A stretch of DNA of 12,378 nt, from positions 1 through 12,378 of the forward strand of contig JAUVQD010000017.1 in assembly GCA_030598355.1 (NCBI GenBank). Reading direction: 5' to 3'. Numbering within the stretch: the stretch's first letter is position 1; each line of letters opens with the position of its first letter. This DNA comes from Actinomycetes bacterium (GTDB lineage Bacteria > Actinomycetota > Aquicultoria > CAJVYJ01 > JAUVQD01). The notes under the pieces are model-generated. The model did not search any database. It had not been told where the DNA came from and saw only the letters and a program-made list of their open reading frames with translations. Both the position numbers and the translations under genes were made by a program. Below are positions 1 through 12,374 of this stretch, in pieces.

Positions 1-690
1 ATTAAAATCGCGGTTCATGCGATCAAAAATATTTTTTGTAAACGCGGCGCTCAGGCCCGCGGAGTCATTATAGGCGGCGTGCAAGGCTTCGGGGTCTTCG
101 GTAATGTCTATGCCTAAAAGGGAGAAGTCGCCTTTTACTTGATGAGCACATACACTCTCCCAAAAGGTAGTCGATTGGACGGTATCGAAATTTCCGATTG
201 AGCTGCCAAGAAAAAGAAAGAGTGACGGGGAAAATTGATGAAATAGATTGAAGGCTTCTTCATAGGTTCCGTGGAATGGATCGACAGAAACGTTTGGAAA
301 ATTTTTCGTTAAGCTGAGCTTGGCCTCTTCGAGAATTGTGTGACTGATATCAACCGGGGTGTAACATGTTTGACCGAACTCTTTAGAGTAGGCTTCAAGT
401 ATGGTTTGGGTCTTTATCGAACTACCCGAGCCAAATTCTATCAATGTCAGATTGCCGGTTTTCACAGCGATATCTGAAGCGGCGGCCTTTAGAATCTGAC
501 TCTCAGCGCTTGTTAAATAGTATTCAGGTTGCTCACAAATACGCTCAAAAAGCTGGCTTCCGTGGGCGTCATAGAGAAAACGGCAGTCAAGGTGGCGCGG
601 CGTATCACTCAAGCCCCGAACCACCGAACGGGCAAAGGCCAGTGTTTCTGTATCCGGTGTTCTTGTTATTTGTTCAATTGGACTAGCCAT
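1..690 (-). CDS. egtD: L-histidine N-alpha-methyltransferase EgtD (3' end cut off by window edge)
   Basis: Predicted SAM-dependent enzyme that methylates the alpha-amino group of histidine three times to give hercynine (trimethylhistidine), the first step of ergothioneine synthesis; cytosolic. The visible 230 residues begin with a typical EgtD N-terminus: RFLYDAHGSQLFERIC at 37-52, followed by PEYYLTSAE at 55-63. The SAM-binding strand LIEFGSGSS is at 83-91 and the family signature FLGSSIGNF at 160-168. Asn167 and Tyr207 (in AAYND) match known histidine-binding positions of mycobacterial EgtD. The family is usually about 320 residues, so roughly the last 90 residues, including the Glu/Ser substrate contacts, lie outside the window. 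The ATG at 690 follows an AGGTGA ribosome site and begins three bases after the stop of the upstream fusion gene, so the two are co-transcribed and probably translationally coupled. Identification is firm from the motifs. Confidence 0.93.
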   Translation of the reverse strand, partial: MASPIEQITRTPDTETLAFARSVVRGLSDTPRHLDCRFLYDAHGSQLFERICEQPEYYLTSAESQILKAAASDIAVKTGNLTLIEFGSGSSIKTQTILEAYSKEFGQTCYTPVDISHTILEEAKLSLTKNFPNVSVDPFHGTYEEAFNLFHQFSPSLFLFLGSSIGNFDTVQSTTFWESVCAHQVKGDFSLLGIDITEDPEALHAAYNDSAGLSAAFTKNIFDRMNRDFN

Positions 691-693
691 GTC

Positions 694-3600
694 TCACCTG
701 CAAGGCATAAACCTGATTGTGCTTCTTGATTCACTAATTATTTTTTCAAGCGCTCGTAGTACAGTATCTACCTCAGCCGCTGTGTTTTTCAAGCCCAAAG
801 AGAAACGGATGGAACAATGGGCCTCTTCGGCGGTCAGACCCATGGCTAGAAGAGCAGGGGAAGGGTCAGGAGAACCTGATTTACACGCTGATCCTGACGA
901 GAGCGCGATATTCTCTCGGTCAAGCTTAAGAACCAGAGATTCACCCCTAAAACCGGGGATGGTCATATTCACGGTATTTGGCAGACGTTCTATTTGCTGA
1001 CCATTGCAAAAGCTGCCCTCGGCCACTGCCGCAATTCCTGCTTGCAGCCTATCTCGTAGTTTAGCGACACTCGCCATTGCTGGCAGACGACTGGCCGCAA
1101 GCTCAGCGGCTTTGGCAAAACCGACGATAGCCGCAATATTCTCTGTTCCAGCTCTTAGTGAGTTTTCCTGGTCGCCACCGTCAATGAGGGCTGAAAGGTT
1201 GACGCCTGAGCGAACAAAAAGCGCCCCCGCTCCTTTTGGGCCGTGGATTTTATGAGAAGACAAAGACAGCAGATCGACTCCGAGCGCGCCAACGTCTACG
1301 GGTATTTTACCCAGGGCCTGGACACCATCGGAATGAAAGAGCACACCGTGTTCCTTGGCGATAGCCGCTAATTCAGAAATAGGTTGAATGACGCCAGTTT
1401 CGTTGTTCGCCATCATAATCGAGACCAAAATTGTCTCAGCCCCTATGGCTTTCTTTAAATCACTCGGATCTATGGTTCCACTTTTATCAACCGGCAGGTA
1501 AGTGACTGAATAACCATCTTGTTCAAGGGCGCGGCAAGTTTTGAGGATAGCCGGATGTTCAATAGTAGATGTAATTATATGGCCGCGTTGCGTCCCGAAA
1601 GTCTTCGCCACACCCTTAATGGCCAGATTATCGGCTTCTGAGCCACCGCTTGTAAAGATTATACGTTTTGCCGTGGCGTTGATTACCTGGGCAATTTCTC
1701 TTCTGGCATTGGACAAAGTTTCTTTCGCTTCTGCGCCAAGAGTATGAATGCTTGACGGGTTACCGAATTCTTGACGGAGATAGGGGAGCATGGCGTCAAG
1801 CGCTTCCGGGTCAAGTGACGTTGTTGCGTTATGGTCCATGTAAATGACTGGTTCAGAAGGTTTTTTAGCGCTTTCTTTTAGGTCGCTCATTTCATTGGTT
1901 TCATCATTAAATATCTCGTCAATCGAGTGAGCAACAGTAGACGAGACGAATTCCACTTCACAAAGGAGCGATTTATAGACCGGAAAACCAGAAATAGGAT
2001 CGTGTTGATCAAGGTCGGTTAAGGTGTTGACATTGCAGTTTCTCCAAGCAGCCGGTCCTACTGGACCTCCACCACCCATATTCGCGTCTATGGCGCCTTC
2101 TACAATGTCGTCGCTGACGCGGGCTCGAAAACGAGCGCGTCCGCGGAGAGTGATTACATCGACCTCGTCCCCATTATTTATCCCTCGTTTTTTCGCGTCA
2201 TTTAAGTTAATCGTCACGATTGGCTCAGGCGCTTTGTTAAGTAGACCTTCGATTCCATGATGTTGGGAGCAAAAGTCGGTTTTGACTCGCGCCCCTGAGC
2301 TAAAGACCAGCGGATACTCGGGATTAGGCGAACTCAGAGGACCCTCTTTTGGTTCAGTATAAACGGGAAGAGGGTCATACCCGTGTTCTTCTAAGACGCT
2401 CGAGGCTATTTCAAGTTTACCGGAGGGCGTGGCAAATCCGGGCTTTCCGTCTTTACGCAGCAAGCCCTTTTCCCACTTTTTATACTCCATCATGCCGGTG
2501 GCGAGCATTACCGAGCCCCCGTCCGCTCGTACGTCGCCGGGCGTAAACCCCGAGCCTTTCAGAACATGCTCTAGTAGAGCTTCTTCACTTTGTGGAAAGC
2601 GGTCTCCGTATCCAAGGCGTTTGGCCAGCTCTCCCATAATTAACAGGTCATTTCTCGCCTCGCCGACGGGTTCAATAAGTCTTTCTCGAATGCTGAATAT
2701 CGGACCGTATACCATATAAGAAGTGTTCTCGTACCCGGTTGTTGCCGGCAGGACAATATCGGCGTAAGCCGCGTCGGCGGTAAGCTGCCTGTCTATTGTC
2801 ACCAGGAAATCAAGTTTATCGAGAGTCCGCCGCCAAACATCAGGTTCAGGCCAGGCGGTTATTATCGAACCACCCTGTATGATCAATGACTTAATTGGAT
2901 AAGGCCTTCCTTCAAGCACGGCCTTGGGCAGCTCAATCGCGTGAGATTCGCCGCGATATAAACTGTAAACAGGAAAACGATCGCGTCCGATGGCTTTCTT
3001 AACATCGGGATTACTAATCAAGCCATCTTTGTTTATCGGGAATGTATTCTGCGTCATTCGAAAAACACGTCCGCCCGGGACATCCAGTTGACCCGCTAGC
3101 GCCCAGAGAATCATTGTGGCTCTAATAGTCTGAACACCGCTACTGGAATATTCAAGACCTGTATACATGACCGGACTCGCGCCGCGGGCCTGACAAATAC
3201 GACGGGCCAGGCTACGGACTGTATCAGCGGGCACACCCGTTATTTCCTGGGCGGCCTCGGGTCGAAAGTGTTGGGTGTATTGAACAAGATCGTCAAAGCC
3301 GACAGTCCAGTCGGCAACAAAATTTTCATCAAAGAGCTCCTCTTCTATTACTACTTGGATCATGCTGAGCGCCAGAGCCCCATCGGTTCCGGGGCGTATT
3401 GGAACCCACTGACCTCCGCTCTCCTTAGCTGTTTCATTATGGCGGGGATCAATAACGACAACCTCAGCGCCATTTTGTCGAGCTTTTAGTATCTGCTTAT
3501 GAGCAAGGGGCGGTGAATCAGTGGCCGGGTTGGATCCCCAGACAACGATCAATTCAGCCTGGTCAATATCTGAATCCATATTCACCATCATCCCGCCCAT

Positions 3601-4083
3601 GGTTACGTGAGGCGCGATCATCGCAAAGGAAACATAACAGAGCGCGCCTACGCCAAAAGTATTGGGCGAGCCAAAAGGAAACAGAAGGCTTGAAGCTGAA
3701 GAGACCACTGTGTCTTTGGGTTGAAAAACATCACATAGTGCCAGATCAAAGCTACCACGACCAGTATATATGGCGGTCGCTTCCGGACCAAATCTTTGCT
3801 TTGTCTTAATCAAATTTTCAGCTATTATTTCGTAGGCATTGTTCCAGGAGATAGGCTCAAAATCATATGCTCCCTTTGGTCCTACGCGCCTCAAAGGTGT
3901 TTTTAAGCGATCAGGCGAGTAGACCATTTCGGGTGAATGCTCGCCAAGTTTGCAGATCATGCCCAACGGGTGTCCTCCGCGGGCTTCTGTTTTAACTAGC
4001 TTGCCATTAGCCATGGTCGCGGTAACCCAGCAACCGGCGGGGCAAATTCCACAGATTGTGTCTACTTTGGTTGATCCGCTCGT
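694..4083 (-). CDS. Molybdopterin oxidoreductase-cysteine desulfurase fusion; predicted metallopterin-dependent ergothioneine synthase (MES-like)
   Basis: Predicted to insert sulfur from cysteine into trimethylhistidine, giving ergothioneine without oxygen. Numbering is from the ACG at 4083 (1129 residues). Residues 11-44 carry C-x2-C-x3-C-x25-C for a [4Fe-4S] cluster. A DMSO-reductase-family catalytic region follows: Cys149 in GALCYVS aligns by eye with the Mo/W-ligand cysteine of NapA/formate dehydrogenase-type enzymes, and VVWGSNP near 180-186 is a pterin-binding strand. A molydopterin-binding domain spans about 590-720. After a linker, a complete class V desulfurase begins near 745, with MDHNATT at 749, the PLP lysine in SSHKIHG at about 945, and the catalytic cysteine in SSGSACKSGS at about 1067. 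The fusion is one uninterrupted frame. The first ATG (4014) would remove three of the four cluster cysteines, so the start must lie upstream, where only near-cognate codons exist. egtD follows by three bases, which points to ergothioneine. Domains are certain; the exact reaction is inferred from context and from the Caldithrix enzyme as I recall it. Confidence 0.85.
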   Translation of the reverse strand, partial: TSGSTKVDTICGICPAGCWVTATMANGKLVKTEARGGHPLGMICKLGEHSPEMVYSPDRLKTPLRRVGPKGAYDFEPISWNNAYEIIAENLIKTKQRFGPEATAIYTGRGSFDLALCDVFQPKDTVVSSASSLLFPFGSPNTFGVGALCYVSFAMIAPHVTMGGMMVNMDSDIDQAELIVVWGSNPATDSPPLAHKQILKARQNGAEVVVIDPRHNETAKESGGQWVPIRPGTDGALALSMIQVVIEEELFDENFVADWTVGFDDLVQYTQHFRPEAAQEITGVPADTVRSLARRICQARGASPVMYTGLEYSSSGVQTIRATMILWALAGQLDVPGGRVFRMTQNTFPINKDGLISNPDVKKAIGRDRFPVYSLYRGESHAIELPKAVLEGRPYPIKSLIIQGGSIITAWPEPDVWRRTLDKLDFLVTIDRQLTADAAYADIVLPATTGYENTSYMVYGPIFSIRERLIEPVGEARNDLLIMGELAKRLGYGDRFPQSEEALLEHVLKGSGFTPGDVRADGGSVMLATGMMEYKKWEKGLLRKDGKPGFATPSGKLEIASSVLEEHGYDPLPVYTEPKEGPLSSPNPEYPLVFSSGARVKTDFCSQHHGIEGLLNKAPEPIVTINLNDAKKRGINNGDEVDVITLRGRARFRARVSDDIVEGAIDANMGGGGPVGPAAWRNCNVNTLTDLDQHDPISGFPVYKSLLCEVEFVSSTVAHSIDEIFNDETNEMSDLKESAKKPSEPVIYMDHNATTSLDPEALDAMLPYLRQEFGNPSSIHTLGAEAKETLSNARREIAQVINATAKRIIFTSGGSEADNLAIKGVAKTFGTQRGHIITSTIEHPAILKTCRALEQDGYSVTYLPVDKSGTIDPSDLKKAIGAETILVSIMMANNETGVIQPISELAAIAKEHGVLFHSDGVQALGKIPVDVGALGVDLLSLSSHKIHGPKGAGALFVRSGVNLSALIDGGDQENSLRAGTENIAAIVGFAKAAELAASRLPAMASVAKLRDRLQAGIAAVAEGSFCNGQQIERLPNTVNMTIPGFRGESLVLKLDRENIALSSGSACKSGSPDPSPALLAMGLTAEEAHCSIRFSLGLKNTAAEVDTVLRALEKIISESRSTIRFMPCR

Positions 4084-4104
4084 CTTTAAAACCTCTCTTC
4101 TTTA
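4081..4104 (-). promoter_or_regulatory. Ribosome binding site and non-canonical ACG start of the fusion gene
   Basis: On the minus strand an in-frame TAA (4104-4102) closes the frame upstream. Between it and the first Fe-S cysteine there is no ATG, GTG or TTG. The purine-rich AAGAAGAGAGG (4102-4092) ends eight bases before ACG (4083-4081), the usual spacing. Initiation there would give a protein starting (M)SGSTKVDTICGIC, a length typical of this family. Base 4082 is the only difference from ATG, so a natural ACG start, a mutation or a consensus error are all possible. Confidence 0.6.
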
Positions 4105-4238: not shown

Positions 4239-4892
<654 letters not shown>

Positions 4893-4907
4893 TAAATAAG
4901 GAGGAAA

Positions 4908-5864
4908 ATGGCGCTTTCATGTCATGATCTGCTAGCTATCGAGGACTTGGAGAAGGCAGACATATTGACCTTGATCGATACCGCTGTATCCTTTAAAGAT
5001 GTCTCGACCCGGCAGATCAAGAAAGTGCCAACGCTTAGGGGTCGAACAATTGTCAATTTTTTTCTTGAACCCAGCACGCGGACGCGGACCTCATTTGAAA
5101 TAGCCGGAAAAAGATTGAGTGCCGATGTTATCAATATTTCCGGCTCGGCAAGCAGCTTAGTCAAGGGCGAGAGCTTAAAGGATATGGCCAGAACAATTGA
5201 GGCAATGCAGGTAGACGCTGTTGTCGTCAGACACTGGTCGAGCGGATCCGCTTTCAAACTAGCTCATTATATTGAGCCACCTGTGATAAACGCCGGTGAC
5301 GGAAAGCATGAACATCCGACTCAGGCTTTACTTGATCTGTTAACAATTAAGGAAAGCTTCGGCAAGATAGCGGGTCTTAAGGTAACAATTGTTGGCGACA
5401 TCAGTCATAGCCGTGTGGCCCGGTCGCTAGTCGTGCTTCTTAAAACCATGGGCGCGACAGTTACTATTGTGGCGCCGCCAATGCTTATCCCGGCCGAAAT
5501 GGAGAAGTTGGGCTGCGATATTTCACTGTCTCTAGATGATGTCATCGAGAAATCAGACATTCTATATATTTTGAGGATCCAGAAGGAAAGGCTGACAAGT
5601 GATCTTTTCTCTAATTATGCTGAGTACAATCGTCAGTATGGTTTGACAAAAGAGCGCTGGGCCAAAGCTTCAAAAAAATGCAAAGTTATGCATCCGGGCC
5701 CCATGAACAGGGGAATTGAGATAGACGATGAAGTCGCCGACAGTCTTGGTAGCTTGGTCAACGCACAGGTGGAAAATGGTGTCGCTATGAGAATGGCGGT
5801 ACTTTATTTACTAGTTGGCGGAGCGGCCCAAGAGTTGGGCGGAGCTCGGGAAGGGGCGCTTTAA
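4908..5864 (+). CDS. pyrB: Aspartate carbamoyltransferase catalytic subunit
   Basis: Makes N-carbamoyl-aspartate from carbamoyl phosphate and aspartate, the committed step of pyrimidine synthesis; cytosolic, normally a catalytic trimer. The 318 residues match the family length. The carbamoyl-phosphate site FLEPSTRTRTSFE is at 52-64, the mobile-loop lysine in SSLVKGES is Lys86, HEHPTQALLD is at 134-143, and the aspartate-binding segment HPGPMNRGIEI is at 262-272. A perfect AAGGAGG (4898-4904) lies only three bases before the ATG. The gene starts 15 bases after pyrR. No regulatory-chain gene (pyrI) is seen in the window, so control is probably through PyrR rather than allosteric PyrI. Confidence 0.97.
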   Translation: MALSCHDLLAIEDLEKADILTLIDTAVSFKDVSTRQIKKVPTLRGRTIVNFFLEPSTRTRTSFEIAGKRLSADVINISGSASSLVKGESLKDMARTIEAMQVDAVVVRHWSSGSAFKLAHYIEPPVINAGDGKHEHPTQALLDLLTIKESFGKIAGLKVTIVGDISHSRVARSLVVLLKTMGATVTIVAPPMLIPAEMEKLGCDISLSLDDVIEKSDILYILRIQKERLTSDLFSNYAEYNRQYGLTKERWAKASKKCKVMHPGPMNRGIEIDDEVADSLGSLVNAQVENGVAMRMAVLYLLVGGAAQELGGAREGAL

Positions 5865-5868
5865 AAGG

Positions 5869-7152
5869 TTGACTGACAAGATACTTATTAAAGGTGGCCG
5901 CGTAATTGATCCAACTAGCGAGGAAGATTCAGTTAGGGATATTTGCGTTGAGAAGAACGTTATCGTTGAGAAGTTTAGTAACGATAAAAGCATATCAGTT
6001 ATTGATGCGAAAGGGTTATTGGTTACACCTGGCTTGATTGACATGCACGTTCATTTGCGTGAACCTGGCCGCGAAGATGAGGAAACGATTGAATCGGGCG
6101 CTCAGGCAGCCTGTGCCGGCGGTTTCACAACCATCGTCTGTATGCCGAACACCGACCCACGTGTCGAAACAAGATCAGTCGTAGAGTACATAACTAAAAG
6201 GGCGACCGGTCTTCCCTCCAAGGTGAAGGTGGTCGGAGCCATAAGTGTTGGATCAACGGGAGAGAGTTTAACTGAAATGGGCGCGATGATAGGCGCCGGG
6301 GCAGTGGCTTTTTCTGATGATGGGCGGCCGGTAAAAGATAGTGCCCTGATGAGGCGGGCGCTTGAATATAGTACCGTTTTTGACGTACCGATAATAAGCC
6401 ACGCTGAGGACATGGCCTTGTCTGACGGGGGAGTAATGCACGAGGGATTGGTTTCTACATCCCTCGGGTTAAAAGGTATTCCCGCAGCAGCTGAAGACAT
6501 TATTGTGGCCAGAGACATTATTTTGAGCAAGTTGACCGGAGCCAAGCTTCACGTAACGCATCTTTCCACAGCTGGTAGCGTAGAGCTCATAAGGGCGGCG
6601 AAAAAAGAGGGCTTAAAAGTTACGGCTGATGTTACTCCTCATCATCTTAGCTTGACGGCTGATGGCTTAAAGGGGTATGAAGCGAATTGCAAAGTTAATC
6701 CGCCGCTCAGGGAAGAAGCTGACAGAAAAGCGCTTATCGCTGGCCTAGTTGACGGGACTATTGACGCGATTGCCAGCGATCACGCGCCTCACGCGGCCAA
6801 TGAAAAAGAAGAAGAGATAGAGCGCGCGCCGTTCGGAACTATTGGACTGCAAACGACCTTGCCAATTGTCTTAACGCAGTTAATCAGCAGCAAATTCAGT
6901 TTGTTGGAATTAATGGGTAAGCTCACAAAAGGCCCAGCTCAAATCCTCGGAATTGACGAAGGAACATTGCAGCCGGGCAGTGAAGCAGATATATCAATAA
7001 TTGACACTGAAGCTAAGGTACAGATAGAGCCAAGCTTCTTTTTGTCCAAAAGTAAAAATAGCGCGTTTTTGGGAATGAAAGCCAGCGGACGAGCAGTATA
7101 CGTTATTTTACGAGGCCGGCTGGTTTTAAAAGAAGGAGAACTTGTAGGGTGA
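5869..7152 (+). CDS. pyrC: Dihydroorotase (class I)
   Basis: Zinc amidohydrolase that closes carbamoyl-aspartate to dihydroorotate. The metal-binding HVH of [10 protein letters not shown] is His60 and His62. Other active-site motifs are FSDDGRP (149-154), ISHAED (176-181), VTHLSTAGS (229-237), the VTPHHL segment (255-260) and the catalytic ASDHAPH (302-308). The TTG at 5869 is chosen as start. It gives 427 residues, the usual class I length, beginning [15 protein letters not shown] as in relatives, and it lies four bases after the pyrB stop. An in-frame TTG at 5815 would overlap pyrB by 50 bases and add a tail unlike the family. The AAGGGG at 5851-5856 is a rather distant ribosome site, so coupled re-initiation from pyrB is likely. 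The gene overlaps carA by four bases. Confidence 0.95.
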
Positions 7153-8222
7153 AAGCTCTTTTGGTTTTAGAGGACGGAACAGTTTTTAGGGGAAAAAGCT
7201 ATGGGGCCGAAGGAGAAACAACGGGTGAAGTAGTTTTTAATACGAGCATGACTGGTTACCAGGAGATTCTTACTGACCCCTCATACGCGGGACAGATTGT
7301 TACTCTCACGTATCCTATGATCGGAAATTATGGTGTAAATGACGAAGATTATGAGTCAGATAGGGCTCATGTAAATGGCTTCGTTGTCCGCGAAGGAGTA
7401 AGCGCTTATAGCAATTGGCGGGCGAAAGGAAATCTTGAGGATTGGCTGAAGCGAAACAAGATTGTGGGCATAAAGGAATTAGATACTCGCGCTCTTACAA
7501 AACGAATCAGAACTGTTGGGGCAATGAGAGGCATTATTTCGACCACAGATCAATCTGTGGAAAGTCTTAGAAAAAAAGCGGAAGAAGCGCCGCCATTGCT
7601 CGGGCAGAATCTGGTCCGTGGGGTCACGACAAAGACGGGGTATGTCCGTGGGGAGCAGAATGGTTTTGAAGTTGTCGCAATTGATTTTGGCATTAAGAGC
7701 AACATAGGCAATCTTCTGGAAAAAAACGGGTGTCGTGTGAGTGTGGTTTCGGCTACAACTACAGCGGATGAGATACTAGAAAGGGCTCCTGACGGCATTT
7801 TCTTGTCGAACGGCCCTGGCGATCCGACAGAGGTGGAATACGCGATCGAAACTATAAAAGATTTGTTGGGGAAAAAGCCGATATTTGGGATATGCTTAGG
7901 GCATCAACTTTTGGCCTTAGCGCTTGGGGCAAAAACGTATAAGTTAAAGTTCGGCCATAGAGGGGGAAATCAACCGGTCCAAAACTTGGCGACACGTCGT
8001 GTGGAGATAACCGCGCAAAACCATGGTTTTGCTGTTGATAACGATGCTTTGCCTGATCGAATTGAGTCGACCCATATAAATCTTAACGATAATACCAATG
8101 AGGGGATAAGGTGCCTCGATATTCCGGCGTTTTCAGTTCAGTATCATCCAGAGGCAAGTCCGGGTCCACATGATTCTCTCTATTTGTTTAGGGAATTTAT
8201 AGATATGATGGAGCGAAACTAG
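7149..8222 (+). CDS. carA: Carbamoyl-phosphate synthetase small (glutaminase) subunit
   Basis: Releases ammonia from glutamine and channels it to CarB for carbamoyl phosphate synthesis. The 357 residues hold the N-terminal CPSase domain (about 1-130, with [17 protein letters not shown]) and a class I glutamine amidotransferase domain (from about 170). The triad is visible as Cys249 in GICLGHQLL and His333 with Glu335 in [12 protein letters not shown]. The start is a GTG that overlaps the pyrC stop (GTGA), behind AAGGAG at about 7133-7138. Position within the pyr operon suggests a pyrimidine-dedicated enzyme, although a single CPSase can also serve arginine synthesis; no arginine genes are present here. 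Confidence 0.97.
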
Positions 8223-8231
8223 GAGGCGAAT

Positions 8232-9104
8232 GTGTTTAAGAAGATTTTGGTCCCAATTGATTTCTCAGACGAATCTGACAGAGTTCTGGAATACGTAAAA
8301 GGCCTAAAGGCATTCGGTTTAAAAGAGATCACATTAGTTCATGTGGTCGATGTCGGGCGCGCCATCGTTTGGCCTATACCGATTACTTTGACAAACGCAA
8401 TTGAGACTAAGATCGAGGAAAGACGGGAGGCACTTGAAAATGATGGCTTTAAGGCAAGGTTCCTCCTGCTCGAAGGAAGTCCTTCAGATGAGGTCTTAAA
8501 AGTCGTAGCCGATGAAAAGTATTCGATGATTGTTACCGGTTCGCATGGCAAAAGATTGCTTGAAGAAATACTTTTAGGTAGCGTCTCTGAAAAGATTAGC
8601 CGGGAAGCAAAAATACCGGTTTTGCTAATTCGATACGATATCCTAAAAGATATTGAGAAAATCAAACCCCTTGGAGAGTATGCCAGAGAGACTTTTAGGA
8701 AAGTTCTCTTTCCTAGCGATTTCTCAGCGTGCTCCGAGGAAGCTCTCGGCGTACTTCAGCAGTTGAAAGCAGCCGGGGCTAAAGATGTTGTCGCTTTGCA
8801 CATTGTCGATACAAAGAAGCTGGAGACAGAACAAGAAAAAACAGAGAGACTTGAGGCTTGCAGGGTCGACACGGGCCAGATGGTAAAAGAACTGACAAAA
8901 AAAGGCTTCAACGTTAAAAGTATATGCAATGTAGGAGATCCCCTAAGGGAGATACTGGTGGCCGCGGAAGAGAATGACGCCTCGCTTATCTTGATGGGCT
9001 CTCATGGAAAAAGTGTCCTTCGCGAATGGCTTATTGGTAGCGTGTCCCTGAATGTGATCAGGACGGCCAATCGGCCGGCACTCGTTATTCACGAAACTGC
9101 ATGA
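8232..9104 (+). CDS. Tandem-domain universal stress protein (UspA family)
   Basis: A 290-residue cytosolic protein of two UspA domains (about 1-136 and 155-289) with no membrane segment. Each begins with a hydrophobic strand and acidic turn (KKILVPIDFSDES; RKVLFPSDFSACSEE). Each also keeps the ATP-binding pattern G-x2-G-x9-G-S: GSHGKRLLEEILLGS (103-117) and GSHGKSVLREWLIGS (256-270). Both halves therefore probably bind ATP. The GTG start sits five bases after AGGAGG, which overlaps the carA stop TAG, so the gene is firmly part of the operon. The start is further supported by the usual MFKKILVPID beginning. Its role here is unknown. Nucleotide sensing or a stress link to pyrimidine supply is speculation from position only. 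Usp family assignment is firm. Confidence 0.93.
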   Translation: MFKKILVPIDFSDESDRVLEYVKGLKAFGLKEITLVHVVDVGRAIVWPIPITLTNAIETKIEERREALENDGFKARFLLLEGSPSDEVLKVVADEKYSMIVTGSHGKRLLEEILLGSVSEKISREAKIPVLLIRYDILKDIEKIKPLGEYARETFRKVLFPSDFSACSEEALGVLQQLKAAGAKDVVALHIVDTKKLETEQEKTERLEACRVDTGQMVKELTKKGFNVKSICNVGDPLREILVAAEENDASLILMGSHGKSVLREWLIGSVSLNVIRTANRPALVIHETA

Positions 9105-9170
9105 CCCCTTCAATCGGAGAAATATTATCCGGCCACAGGCGTGCTCGCGCTCATGTCCGGGACGAAAATT

Positions 9171-12100
9171 ATGCCTAAAAGAGACGATATCAGCAAGATC
9201 TTAATAATAGGTTCAGGGCCAATCATTATCGGGCAGGCTTGTGAGTTTGACTATTCCGGGACGCAGGCCTGCAAGGTTCTTCGACGTGACGGCTTTGAGG
9301 TTGTTTTGATCAACAGCAACCCGGCGACAATCATGACCGATCCGGAATTTGCAGACAAAACTTATGTTGAGCCGATTACACCTGAAATAGTAACCAAAAT
9401 AATTGAAAAGGAGCGTCCCCAAGCCCTTCTGCCAACTTTAGGGGGTCAGACAGGCTTAAATACGGCTGTTTCCTTAGCCGAAGACGGTGTCCTCGATAAA
9501 TACGACGTTGAGTTGATTGGCGCGAAACTGGAATCAATAAAGAAAGCCGAAGATAGAAATCTCTTTAAGAGCGCAATTCAAAAGATTGGTCTCGCGCTTC
9601 CCGAATCCGGCTTTGCCAATACTCTGGCCGAGGCCCGGAAATTAGTGGATGGCATGGGTTTTCCAGTGGTTATTCGTCCAAGTTTTACTCTTGGAGGGAC
9701 GGGCGGGGGCATTGCGTTTAACTTACAGGAGTTCAACGACATAGTGGCCTATGGAATAATGTTAAGCCCGGTCAGTGAGGTTCTTATCGAGGTTTCGGTT
9801 ATAGGCTGGAAGGAATACGAACTTGAAGTAATGAGAGACAGGCATAATAATTCTGTGATTGTCTGCTCAATTGAAAACCTTGATCCTATGGGCATCCATA
9901 CAGGCGACAGCATTACGGTTGCGCCGGCCCAGACGCTTTCCGACAAAGAATACCAGGAAATGAGAAATTCCGCCTTAAAGATAATGGATGAGATCGGCGT
10001 TGAAACCGGCGGATCCAATATCCAATTCGCCGTTGATCCGAAGACTGGTAAACAAGTTGTGATTGAAATGAACCCGCGGGTGTCGAGAAGTTCTGCCCTA
10101 GCTTCAAAGGCTACGGGTTTCCCGATAGCCAAGATTGCGGCTCAATTAGCGGTCGGATATACATTAGATGAGATCGTAAACGATATAACGCTTGAGACGC
10201 CGGCTTGTTTTGAGCCTTCAATCGATTATGTTGTGGTCAAGATGCCGCGCTGGGCTTTTGAAAAATTTCCGGAAACTGACGCGTCGCTGACAATAAAAAT
10301 GAAATCAGTTGGCGAAGCCATGGCGATTGGCAGAACTTTCAAAGAAGCGCTTCAAAAAGTAGTGCGCTCTTTGGAAATAGGCCGCTTCGGGCTGGGGTCA
10401 GACGGACATGATGAAATCATCGTTGACCAGGTGGAAGCCAAGCTGACAATTGCCGACCAAGATCGGTTGTTTTACATAAAGCACGCGTTGGCGACAGGGA
10501 TGACGGTTGAAAAAGTCTGCGAGCTGACAAAAGTTGACCCCTGGTTCATTGCTCAAATAGCAGAATTAACCGACATCGAGAACAAGATCAAGGATCAAAA
10601 GATAGATTCTATAGATGCTGAGCTTTTAAGAGATGCGAAAAGAGCGGGTTTTTCCGATATTCAAATAGCTTTTCTTACAGGTTCAAGCGAGCTAAAAGTA
10701 AGAGAGAAGCGAAAAGAAGTCAAGGTCGTTCCCACATTCAAAACAGTCGATACTTGCGCCGCTGAATTTGAAGCCTATACACCTTATTACTATTCAACGT
10801 ATGAGGACGAAGATGAGGTGCGGCAATCGCAGAGGAAAAAAGTGATCATACTAGGAGGCGGTCCTAACCGAATAGGGCAGGGGATCGAATTTGATTATTG
10901 TTGTGTTCACGGTTCATTCGCGCTGAAGGAATTAGCCTATGAAACAATCATGGTTAATTGCAATCCGGAGACAGTGTCTACGGATTACGATACGTCCGAT
11001 CGGCTGTATTTCGAACCGCTGACATATGAGGACGTTATGGATATCGTTGAGCGGGAGAAACCTTATGGGGCAATCATACAATTTGGCGGTCAAACGCCGC
11101 TTAAGTTGGCCAAGGCTTTAGAAAAAGCCGGTGTCAAAATCTTGGGAACATCTCCAGATTCCATTGATCTGGGTGAAGACAGAAAGCAATTGGGCCAAGT
11201 GCTACGCGAGTTGAAAATCCCTCAAGCCGCGCACGGGACGGCTCGAAGCTTCAAGGAGGCGGTCGAGGTGGCGGCCAATATTGGTTATCCGCTGCTTATT
11301 CGACCCTCTTATGTGTTGGGGGGCCGGGCTATGGAGCTGGCGTATACCGATTTCATGCTGGAGGGATATATGGCTTCGGCCGTTAAGGCATCACCAGAGC
11401 ACCCTGTTTTGATCGATAAGTTTTTAGAAGGCGCGATAGAGGTCGATGTTGACGCTTTGGCCGACGGCCACGAAGTCGTAGTTGGCGGTATCATGGAACA
11501 CATTGAGGAGGCGGGAATACATTCCGGAGATAGCGCTTGCGTGATTCCGCCCTATACGCTCAGCGATGATATTCTGGAAACGATTACGGACTATACCATT
11601 AAACTGGGTATGGCCCTGGACGTTATCGGTCTTTTAAATATCCAGTTTGCCGTCAAGGACGAGACCGTTTACGTGCTAGAGGTTAACCCACGGGCGTCTC
11701 GCACGGTGCCGTTTGTGAGCAAGGCTATTGGTATTCCGCTGGCCAAGATCGCTACCAAAATCATGGTTGGAGAGAAGTTGGCCGACGTTATGCCCGATAT
11801 TCCAAAAATGGATTACATGGCTATCAAGGAAGCAGTTCTACCCTTTAACCGCTTTCCCGGTTCAGACATCGTATTAGGCCCGGAAATGCGGTCGACCGGC
11901 GAGGTCATGGGGTTAGCAAAATCATTTAGTGTTGCTTACGCCAAATCGCAGCTGGCGACCGGTTTTAAGTTTCCGGCGAGCGGACGTGTTTTTATCAGTG
12001 TTTGCAATCGTGACAAGAGGAACATCCGATTCATAGCCAAAGGGCTTTTGGATCTAGGCTATAAATTAGTTTCAACCAAGGGCACAGCTGATCTTTTGCG

Positions 12101-12374
12101 TAAAGCAGGGTTAGAGGTGGAAGAGGTTATGAAGGTTCACGAAGGCCGGCCAAATGTGGTTGATTCCATAATAAATGACGAGGTTGGTCTGGTCATAAAT
12201 ACGCCCTGGGGCCGGGGCACGCACTCCGACGGTTTTCATATAAGAACAGCCGCCGCCGCTCATGGAGTTCCCTGTGTAACGACAATAGCCGCCGCTGCCG
12301 CTGTCGTTCAGGGCCTGGAGGCAATTCAGCGGGGAGAGATTGGCGTCAAAGCCCTGCAAGATTATCATGTATAG
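9171..12374 (+). CDS. carB: Carbamoyl-phosphate synthetase large subunit
   Basis: Uses two ATP, bicarbonate and the ammonia delivered by CarA to make carbamoyl phosphate. The protein has 1067 residues from the ATG at 9171, the normal length. The first ATP-grasp half opens with [21 protein letters not shown] and includes the GGTGGG loop. An oligomerisation region lies in the middle (about 400-550). The second half opens with [18 protein letters not shown], and the final roughly 130 residues form an MGS-like allosteric domain containing VINTPWGRG. Both catalytic halves look intact. The ATG at 9171 is preferred because [17 protein letters not shown] is the usual N-terminus. In-frame GTG (9141) and ATG (9153) add residues not typical of the family, and none of the three has a strong ribosome site. 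It lies 66 bases after the stress protein gene and ends four bases from the window edge, complete. Confidence 0.97.

Follow-up and report, generated by a model that had tools for sequence, protein, structure and literature searches.

The metallopterin-dependent ergothioneine synthase (MES) of Caldithrix abyssi (CaMES) was described in 2022 (PMC9516567). That paper names C14, C17, C21 and C48 for the cluster, C153 for the metal and K952 for PLP, together with C1074, C1097 and C1135, and gives acetylene hydratase as a relative of the molybdopterin module (PMC9516567). It also reports that CaMES makes ergothioneine in E. coli, where loss of C153, K952, C1074 or C1135 abolishes measurable product and loss of C1097 halves the production (PMC9516567). 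In the present study, we analysed a window of 12,378 nucleotides, that is, the whole stretch of DNA whose first lines are given above (contig C95 of a genome of 1.54 Mb in 260 contigs, 87.9% complete). It carries a gene pair that belongs to this already described enzyme type, and we consider it very probable that its two genes form an MES-type operon for O2-independent ergothioneine synthesis, in what is probably an actinobacterium. A preliminary description of this DNA had named an MES of such architecture from C. abyssi, in agreement with the paper (PMC9516567). The features of the window are the following.

1..690, minus strand: egtD, first 230 of 323 codons, continued on contig C180 (L002 2..409, plus strand)
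694..4083, minus strand: MES-type fusion gene (molybdopterin module and cysteine desulfurase), 1129 codons plus stop, probable start ACG at 4083
700..702, minus strand: codon of C1128 (CaMES C1135), penultimate, in the C-terminal tail, the putative relay cysteine
763..1845, minus strand: PLP cysteine desulfurase domain of IscS/NifS type, residues 747-1107 (Pfam Aminotran_5)
814..816, minus strand: codon of C1090, the MES-specific cysteine (CaMES C1097)
883..885, minus strand: codon of C1067, the predicted first persulfide cysteine (CaMES C1074)
1249..1251, minus strand: codon of K945, the predicted PLP lysine (CaMES K952)
1969..4068, minus strand: [4Fe-4S]/bis-MGD molybdopterin module, residues 6-705 (PF04879, PF00384, PF01568)
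3637..3639, minus strand: codon of C149, which corresponds to CaMES C153 and is predicted to bind Mo or W; acetylene hydratase has a Cys aligned with it
3952..4053, minus strand: codons of the four predicted [4Fe-4S] ligands C11, C14, C18 and C44 (CaMES C14, C17, C21 and C48)
4092..4099, minus strand: AAGAGAGG, resembling a Shine-Dalgarno sequence and 8 nt ahead of the ACG (read from the sequence)
4377..12374, plus strand: divergent pyrimidine genes pyrR, pyrB, pyrC and carA, a gene for a double-UspA protein, and carB

The preliminary description had reported a gene for a [4Fe-4S]/molybdopterin protein fused to a cysteine desulfurase, with egtD three bases further on, and the frame, the Pfam domains and the coordinates agree with this. 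The stop codon of the fusion gene is at 694-696 and the ATG of egtD at 688-690, with 3 bases between them. The Pfam layout (Molybdop_Fe4S4 6-56, Molybdopterin 59-489, Molydop_binding 599-705, Aminotran_5 747-1107), the continuous frame and the fold matches for both parts place the MPT-binding module and the PLP cysteine desulfurase in one chain. None of the codons ATG, GTG and TTG occurs from the in-frame upstream stop to the CxxCxxxC motif; the first ATG is at 4014, and a start there would remove the first three cluster cysteines. The ACG at 4083 lies ten residues ahead of the first Cys and 8 nt past AAGAGAGG, at the position of the initiator Met of the best-scoring relative (P0002), the starts of other relatives being variable. 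This ACG may be either a miscalled base or a genuine non-standard start. No RNA family was found in the window at the Rfam gathering score.

The end of the window contig cuts egtD; contig C180, which is joined to C95 by an exact overlap of 127 nt, supplies its last 93 codons. In another genome of the same genus (G003), the end of the fusion gene, egtD and the gene after egtD are all on one contig, and thus the gene order of the joined contigs is supported; in a genome of the same family (G001), a full-length fusion gene is followed after four bases by egtD, again on one contig. The joined EgtD protein narrowly passes the equivalog TIGR03438 (294.5 bits, cut-off 290.9) and matches EgtD of M. 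smegmatis with an E value of 2.2e-52. We take the histidine-pocket positions of EgtD to be Y39, F47, Y56, G161, N166, Y206, M252, E282 and S284. Y39, F47, Y56, G161, N166, Y206 and E282 are kept in all 19 EgtDs compared, and S284 in 18 of the 19, that of the window among them; position 252, Met in M. smegmatis and Ile in the window, varies among the 19.

Beyond egtD lies a convergent gene (L002 414..1766, minus strand) for a glutathione-reductase-like FAD disulfide reductase with a GGTCSLRGC motif; the two genes end 4 bases from each other. The same layout is found on one contig in G003, and in G001 the reductase gene is not beside the pair. The protein scored below the cut-off for each of the best 25 of 66 NCBIfam rows. 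We consider it very unlikely that this protein serves specifically to reduce oxidised ergothioneine, in which case ergothioneine would be a functioning low-molecular-weight redox thiol in an anaerobe.

The CaMES numbering was read through two homologues of 1136 aa (P0297 and P0301), which have all nine residues at the published numbers; C. abyssi itself had no entry among the best 120 of 3855, 3764 and 3673 matches of three protein searches, or among the best 80 of 208 of the genome scan. In the alignment through these proxies, the window fusion has all nine CaMES-named residues, as C11, C14, C18, C44, C149, K945, C1067, C1090 and C1128. In CaMES order, the nine positions are conserved in 366, 366, 366, 370, 370, 370, 369, 366 and 367 of 370 homologues, an alignment confined to proteins of 1000-1260 aa and leaving out two with broken frames (L030 and L038). 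The spacing of the residues is non-discriminating, since at least five of the eight intervals equal those of CaMES in all 363 rows scored. The equivalent of C1097 is Cys in 33 of 34 MES and in 1 of 36 stand-alone IscS, and that of C1135 in 32 of 34 and 0 of 36, respectively (38 IscS loci were given, of which 2 were not alignable). Thus, by residue and architecture criteria, the assignment of the fusion as a predicted MES is well supported. The MES tail ends in CR in 225 of 363 rows and in CK in 138, and all 15 rows of the tree clade that holds L014 and L028 end in CK. Close homologues carry the source names Actinobacteria (P0009) and Thermoleophilia (P0013 and P0017), which points to an actinobacterial origin of the window. 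On plasmids, none of 72,556 records had one place covering 80% of the MES query.

In a tree of the molybdopterin modules, from a quick search in which CaMES itself is absent, one branch (SH-aLRT 87) separates 41 MES rows from eight other molybdopterin enzymes, namely acetylene hydratase, two thiosulfate reductases, FdhF, DmsA, TorA, a nitrate reductase and an Enterobacter plasmid oxidoreductase; the support is modest because the end branches of the outgroup are 4.45 to 10 changes per column. The window module clusters with P0002, P0005, P0013 and L084 (99). None of the molybdopterin families among the best 25 of 54 NCBIfam rows for the fusion reached its own cut-off; the PhsA model gave 255.2 bits (cut-off 694), and the PhsA rows lie across the tree branch from MES. 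A grouping with thiosulfate or polysulfide reductases or with formate dehydrogenase was rejected on the tree and on the model cut-offs among these rows. The preliminary description had held that membership among polysulfide or thiosulfate reductases would speak against MES, and the tree and the PhsA cut-off place the protein elsewhere. By sequence, the module scores best in the PDB against the thiosulfate reductase 2VPW (215 bits), with acetylene hydratase close behind (206 bits). The best NCBIfam score of the desulfurase domain is that of NifS (TIGR03402; 499.6 bits, cut-off 530.75).

The AlphaFold2 model of the fusion (63 sequences) has a mean pLDDT of 85.8 and a pTM of 0.83. Its top Foldseek match is acetylene hydratase 2E7Z (E 2.3e-50, TM by target 0.80), and the other leading molybdopterin matches are formate dehydrogenase H and polysulfide reductase 2VPW; the claim of a molybdopterin fold rests on Foldseek, since the rows of VIA-align cover the desulfurase part only. 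In the same model, residues 1124-1129 have a pLDDT below 50. A flexible tail carrying C1128 would fit a relay arm, low confidence being by itself no proof of mobility.

Two other proteins were considered and set aside. The entry 9WEP, the best PDB match of the desulfurase domain, was considered as a possible fragment of CaMES; it has Gly at the C1097-type Cys, and the alignment stops before the tail. The 1145-aa protein of a conjugative Enterobacter ludwigii plasmid (L132 1477..4914) is not an MES; it is a different fusion, of a molybdopterin module with FAD/NAD-binding and 2Fe-2S domains, and its module is 33% identical to that of the window over 62% of the query.

In the proposed mechanism, which would lead from histidine and cysteine to the antioxidant ergothioneine, the histidine-specific methyltransferase EgtD would make trimethylhistidine (TMH). 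The C-terminal PLP domain (K945) would convert cysteine to alanine and leave a persulfide on C1067. The sulfur would then pass to C1128 on the C-terminal tail and from there to the metal centre (bis-MGD with Mo or W), which C149 would hold. Carbon 2 of the TMH imidazole would attack the sulfido ligand of the metal to yield ergothioneine, and a fresh persulfide would recharge the metal; this attack is a tentative proposal of the CaMES authors (PMC9516567). The net reaction would be TMH + Cys to ergothioneine + Ala, and an external oxidant or reductant, such as the couple mentioned in the preliminary description, should not be needed, because this reaction is redox neutral. For the window protein, desulfuration, sulfur relay and sulfuration of TMH are predicted from the match to CaMES; the Fe-S cluster would presumably have a role as well, and ergothioneine would be the product in the host organism. 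That these two genes alone suffice for the pathway, as the preliminary description proposed, is something that we infer, because Moco synthesis is needed too.

One genome scan (best 80 of 208) yielded 42 fusion loci and 38 IscS-only loci. EgtD is in the locus in 18 of the 42 and in none of the 38 (Fisher p 1.1e-6, the loci being phylogenetically non-independent and many of them cut by contig ends). Four of the 42 (L035, L039, L040 and L045) show one module only, at contig ends; without them, 16 of 38 have EgtD. Apart from EgtD, any one neighbour is shared by 3 of 43 loci at most (frames of at least 90 aa, blastp 1e-15). At the genome level, EgtD is above the cut-off in 37 of 42 fusion genomes and present at E <= 0.001 in 38 of 42; where it is below the cut-off or missing (L006, L016, L018, L019 and L044), import of TMH, another substrate or incompleteness of the genome may be the explanation. 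Of the 36 genomes in the class of the window, three (88, 96 and 75% complete) have the fusion and the same three have EgtD, which may reflect one event, because all three genomes are of one family. EgtB had no match in any of these three. The opposite pattern raised in the preliminary description, in which egtB would track egtD and the fusion would not, thus fails in the class.

MES and EgtB were compared across 45 fusion-bearing genome handles, of which G003 and the genome of L040 appear to be one and the same. The EgtB model TIGR03440 matches at E <= 0.001 in 32 of the 45, mostly by one domain, and above the cut-off in seven (L011, L012, L017, L023, L034, L035 and L037), the genome of L039 being near the cut-off (342 vs 360). 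A full-length MES frame was read in L011, L012, L017 and L023. L034, L035 and L037 are cut, the last, in a gap-joined chromosome, retaining MES residues 512-1129 alone, adjoining runs of N; together with L024, L029, L031, L039, L040, L044 and L045, also cut at contig ends, they were left out of the 33 loci read for full frames. L023 is from the purple sulfur bacterium Thiorhodococcus mannitoliphagus DSM 18266; its MES keeps nine of the nine residues, on contig C188 (L140 2336-4680) of the same strain the genes for EgtB (555.5 bits) and EgtD (401.7 bits) are neighbours, and this EgtD is the single match in the genome. These observations suggest that the two synthases, MES and EgtB, do not exclude each other. 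The 2022 study took as its starting point genomes with EgtD in which no other enzyme for the sulfuration of TMH could be discerned (PMC9516567), so that coexistence with EgtB lay outside its aim. No paper on this coexistence was found in our literature search, which included passages of PMC10903977 and covered mostly journals open without subscription. Why two synthases are kept is directly testable in T. mannitoliphagus DSM 18266, a culture-collection strain.

In the genome of the window (87.9% complete), no match was found for the FGE-sulfatase domain of EgtB type, for TIGR03440 or for the rhodanese domain PF00581 (a control matched 13 of 14), and the earlier statement that EgtB and EanB types are absent holds in this scope. 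COX1 also had no match there, the one observation that bears on the presumed anaerobic lifestyle. Molybdopterin cofactor synthesis needs MoaC and MoeA, and neither had a match in the same 87.9%-complete genome; both are also missing from the same-family G001 (75% complete). This gap is the main weakness of the functional case. It is weak evidence, because the genome is fragmented, G003 (96% complete) carries both genes on contig C229, some 2 kb from each other, and MoaC and MoeA are found in 29 and 30 of the 36 class genomes, respectively; a missing piece of the fragmented genome is the likelier explanation.

This bears on the possibility that the pair is non-functional in the window strain, through an altered start codon and the lack of a molybdenum cofactor, which we judge to be very unlikely. 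An ACG does stand where a start codon is expected, MoaC and MoeA are without a match, and the first 785 residues of the fusion in G003 are not found elsewhere in that 96%-complete genome (E <= 1e-100). However, the frame is otherwise open across 1129 codons and a single base miscall would account for the ACG; furthermore, the G003 contig covers just residues 786-1129 of the fusion, the final 344, because the contig end cuts the gene, the parts present there (these residues and EgtD) are 94% identical to those of the window, and G003 has both cofactor genes on one contig. The chance that the protein is instead an MES relative with a shifted product, which would sulfurate TMH or another imidazole betaine toward an end product other than ergothioneine, appears extremely small. 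The divergence of EgtD (its narrow passing score and Ile at 252) and the fusion genomes without detectable EgtD could be read in this way, but the EgtD pocket is otherwise kept, all nine MES residues are kept and no tailoring gene is evident beside the pair.

It is no more probable than such a shifted product that the fusion is an ordinary molybdopterin reductase of the thiosulfate, polysulfide or formate type, with a desulfurase that sulfurates its own cofactor and an incidental egtD. Desulfurases are known to sulfurate the cofactor of other Mo enzymes (PMC9516567), and the best single PDB match of the module by sequence is a thiosulfate reductase. Such an enzyme would, however, sit poorly with the molybdopterin families that all stay below their cut-offs among the best 25 of 54 NCBIfam rows, with a module lying apart from PhsA and FdhF in the tree, and with relay cysteines that are MES-specific relative to IscS. 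Moreover, the flanking genes are egtD and pyrR, without an electron-transfer subunit, and EgtD is the only recurrent neighbour and co-occurs at the genome level too. We therefore retain the MES-type operon as the reading of the pair.

With this operon, a probable actinobacterial lineage would be added to the places that encode O2-independent ergothioneine synthesis, with the two genes adjacent and without a match to a rival synthase. The classical route of Actinobacteria is the O2-dependent one through EgtB, and thus both chemistries would occur in one phylum. The EgtB pathway, which uses an O2-dependent sulfoxide synthase, would have EgtD and the end product in common with the window pair, in whose 87.9%-complete genome no EgtB-type domain was found. 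EanB of Chlorobium also transfers sulfur to TMH independently of O2; it is of the rhodanese type, a domain without a match in the genome of the window. The C-terminal domain of the fusion shares its fold and its PLP and persulfide residues with the IscS/NifS desulfurases, whereas these stand alone and lack the MES cysteines at 1097 and 1135 in all but one and in all of the 36 compared, respectively. Acetylene hydratase 2E7Z resembles the window module in fold, in the Fe-S/bis-MGD layout and in the Cys aligned with its metal-ligand Cys, whereas it is a hydratase without a desulfurase domain and matches the module in two pieces. The window pair differs from C. abyssi MES in its probable actinobacterial source, in the position of egtD three bases downstream, in the ACG start and in an activity that is predicted. 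It resembles C. abyssi MES (PMC9516567) in joining a [4Fe-4S]/bis-MGD module related to acetylene hydratase to a C-terminal cysteine desulfurase, in length (1129 vs 1136 aa), in the nine named residues, in the penultimate relay Cys and in the co-encoded EgtD.
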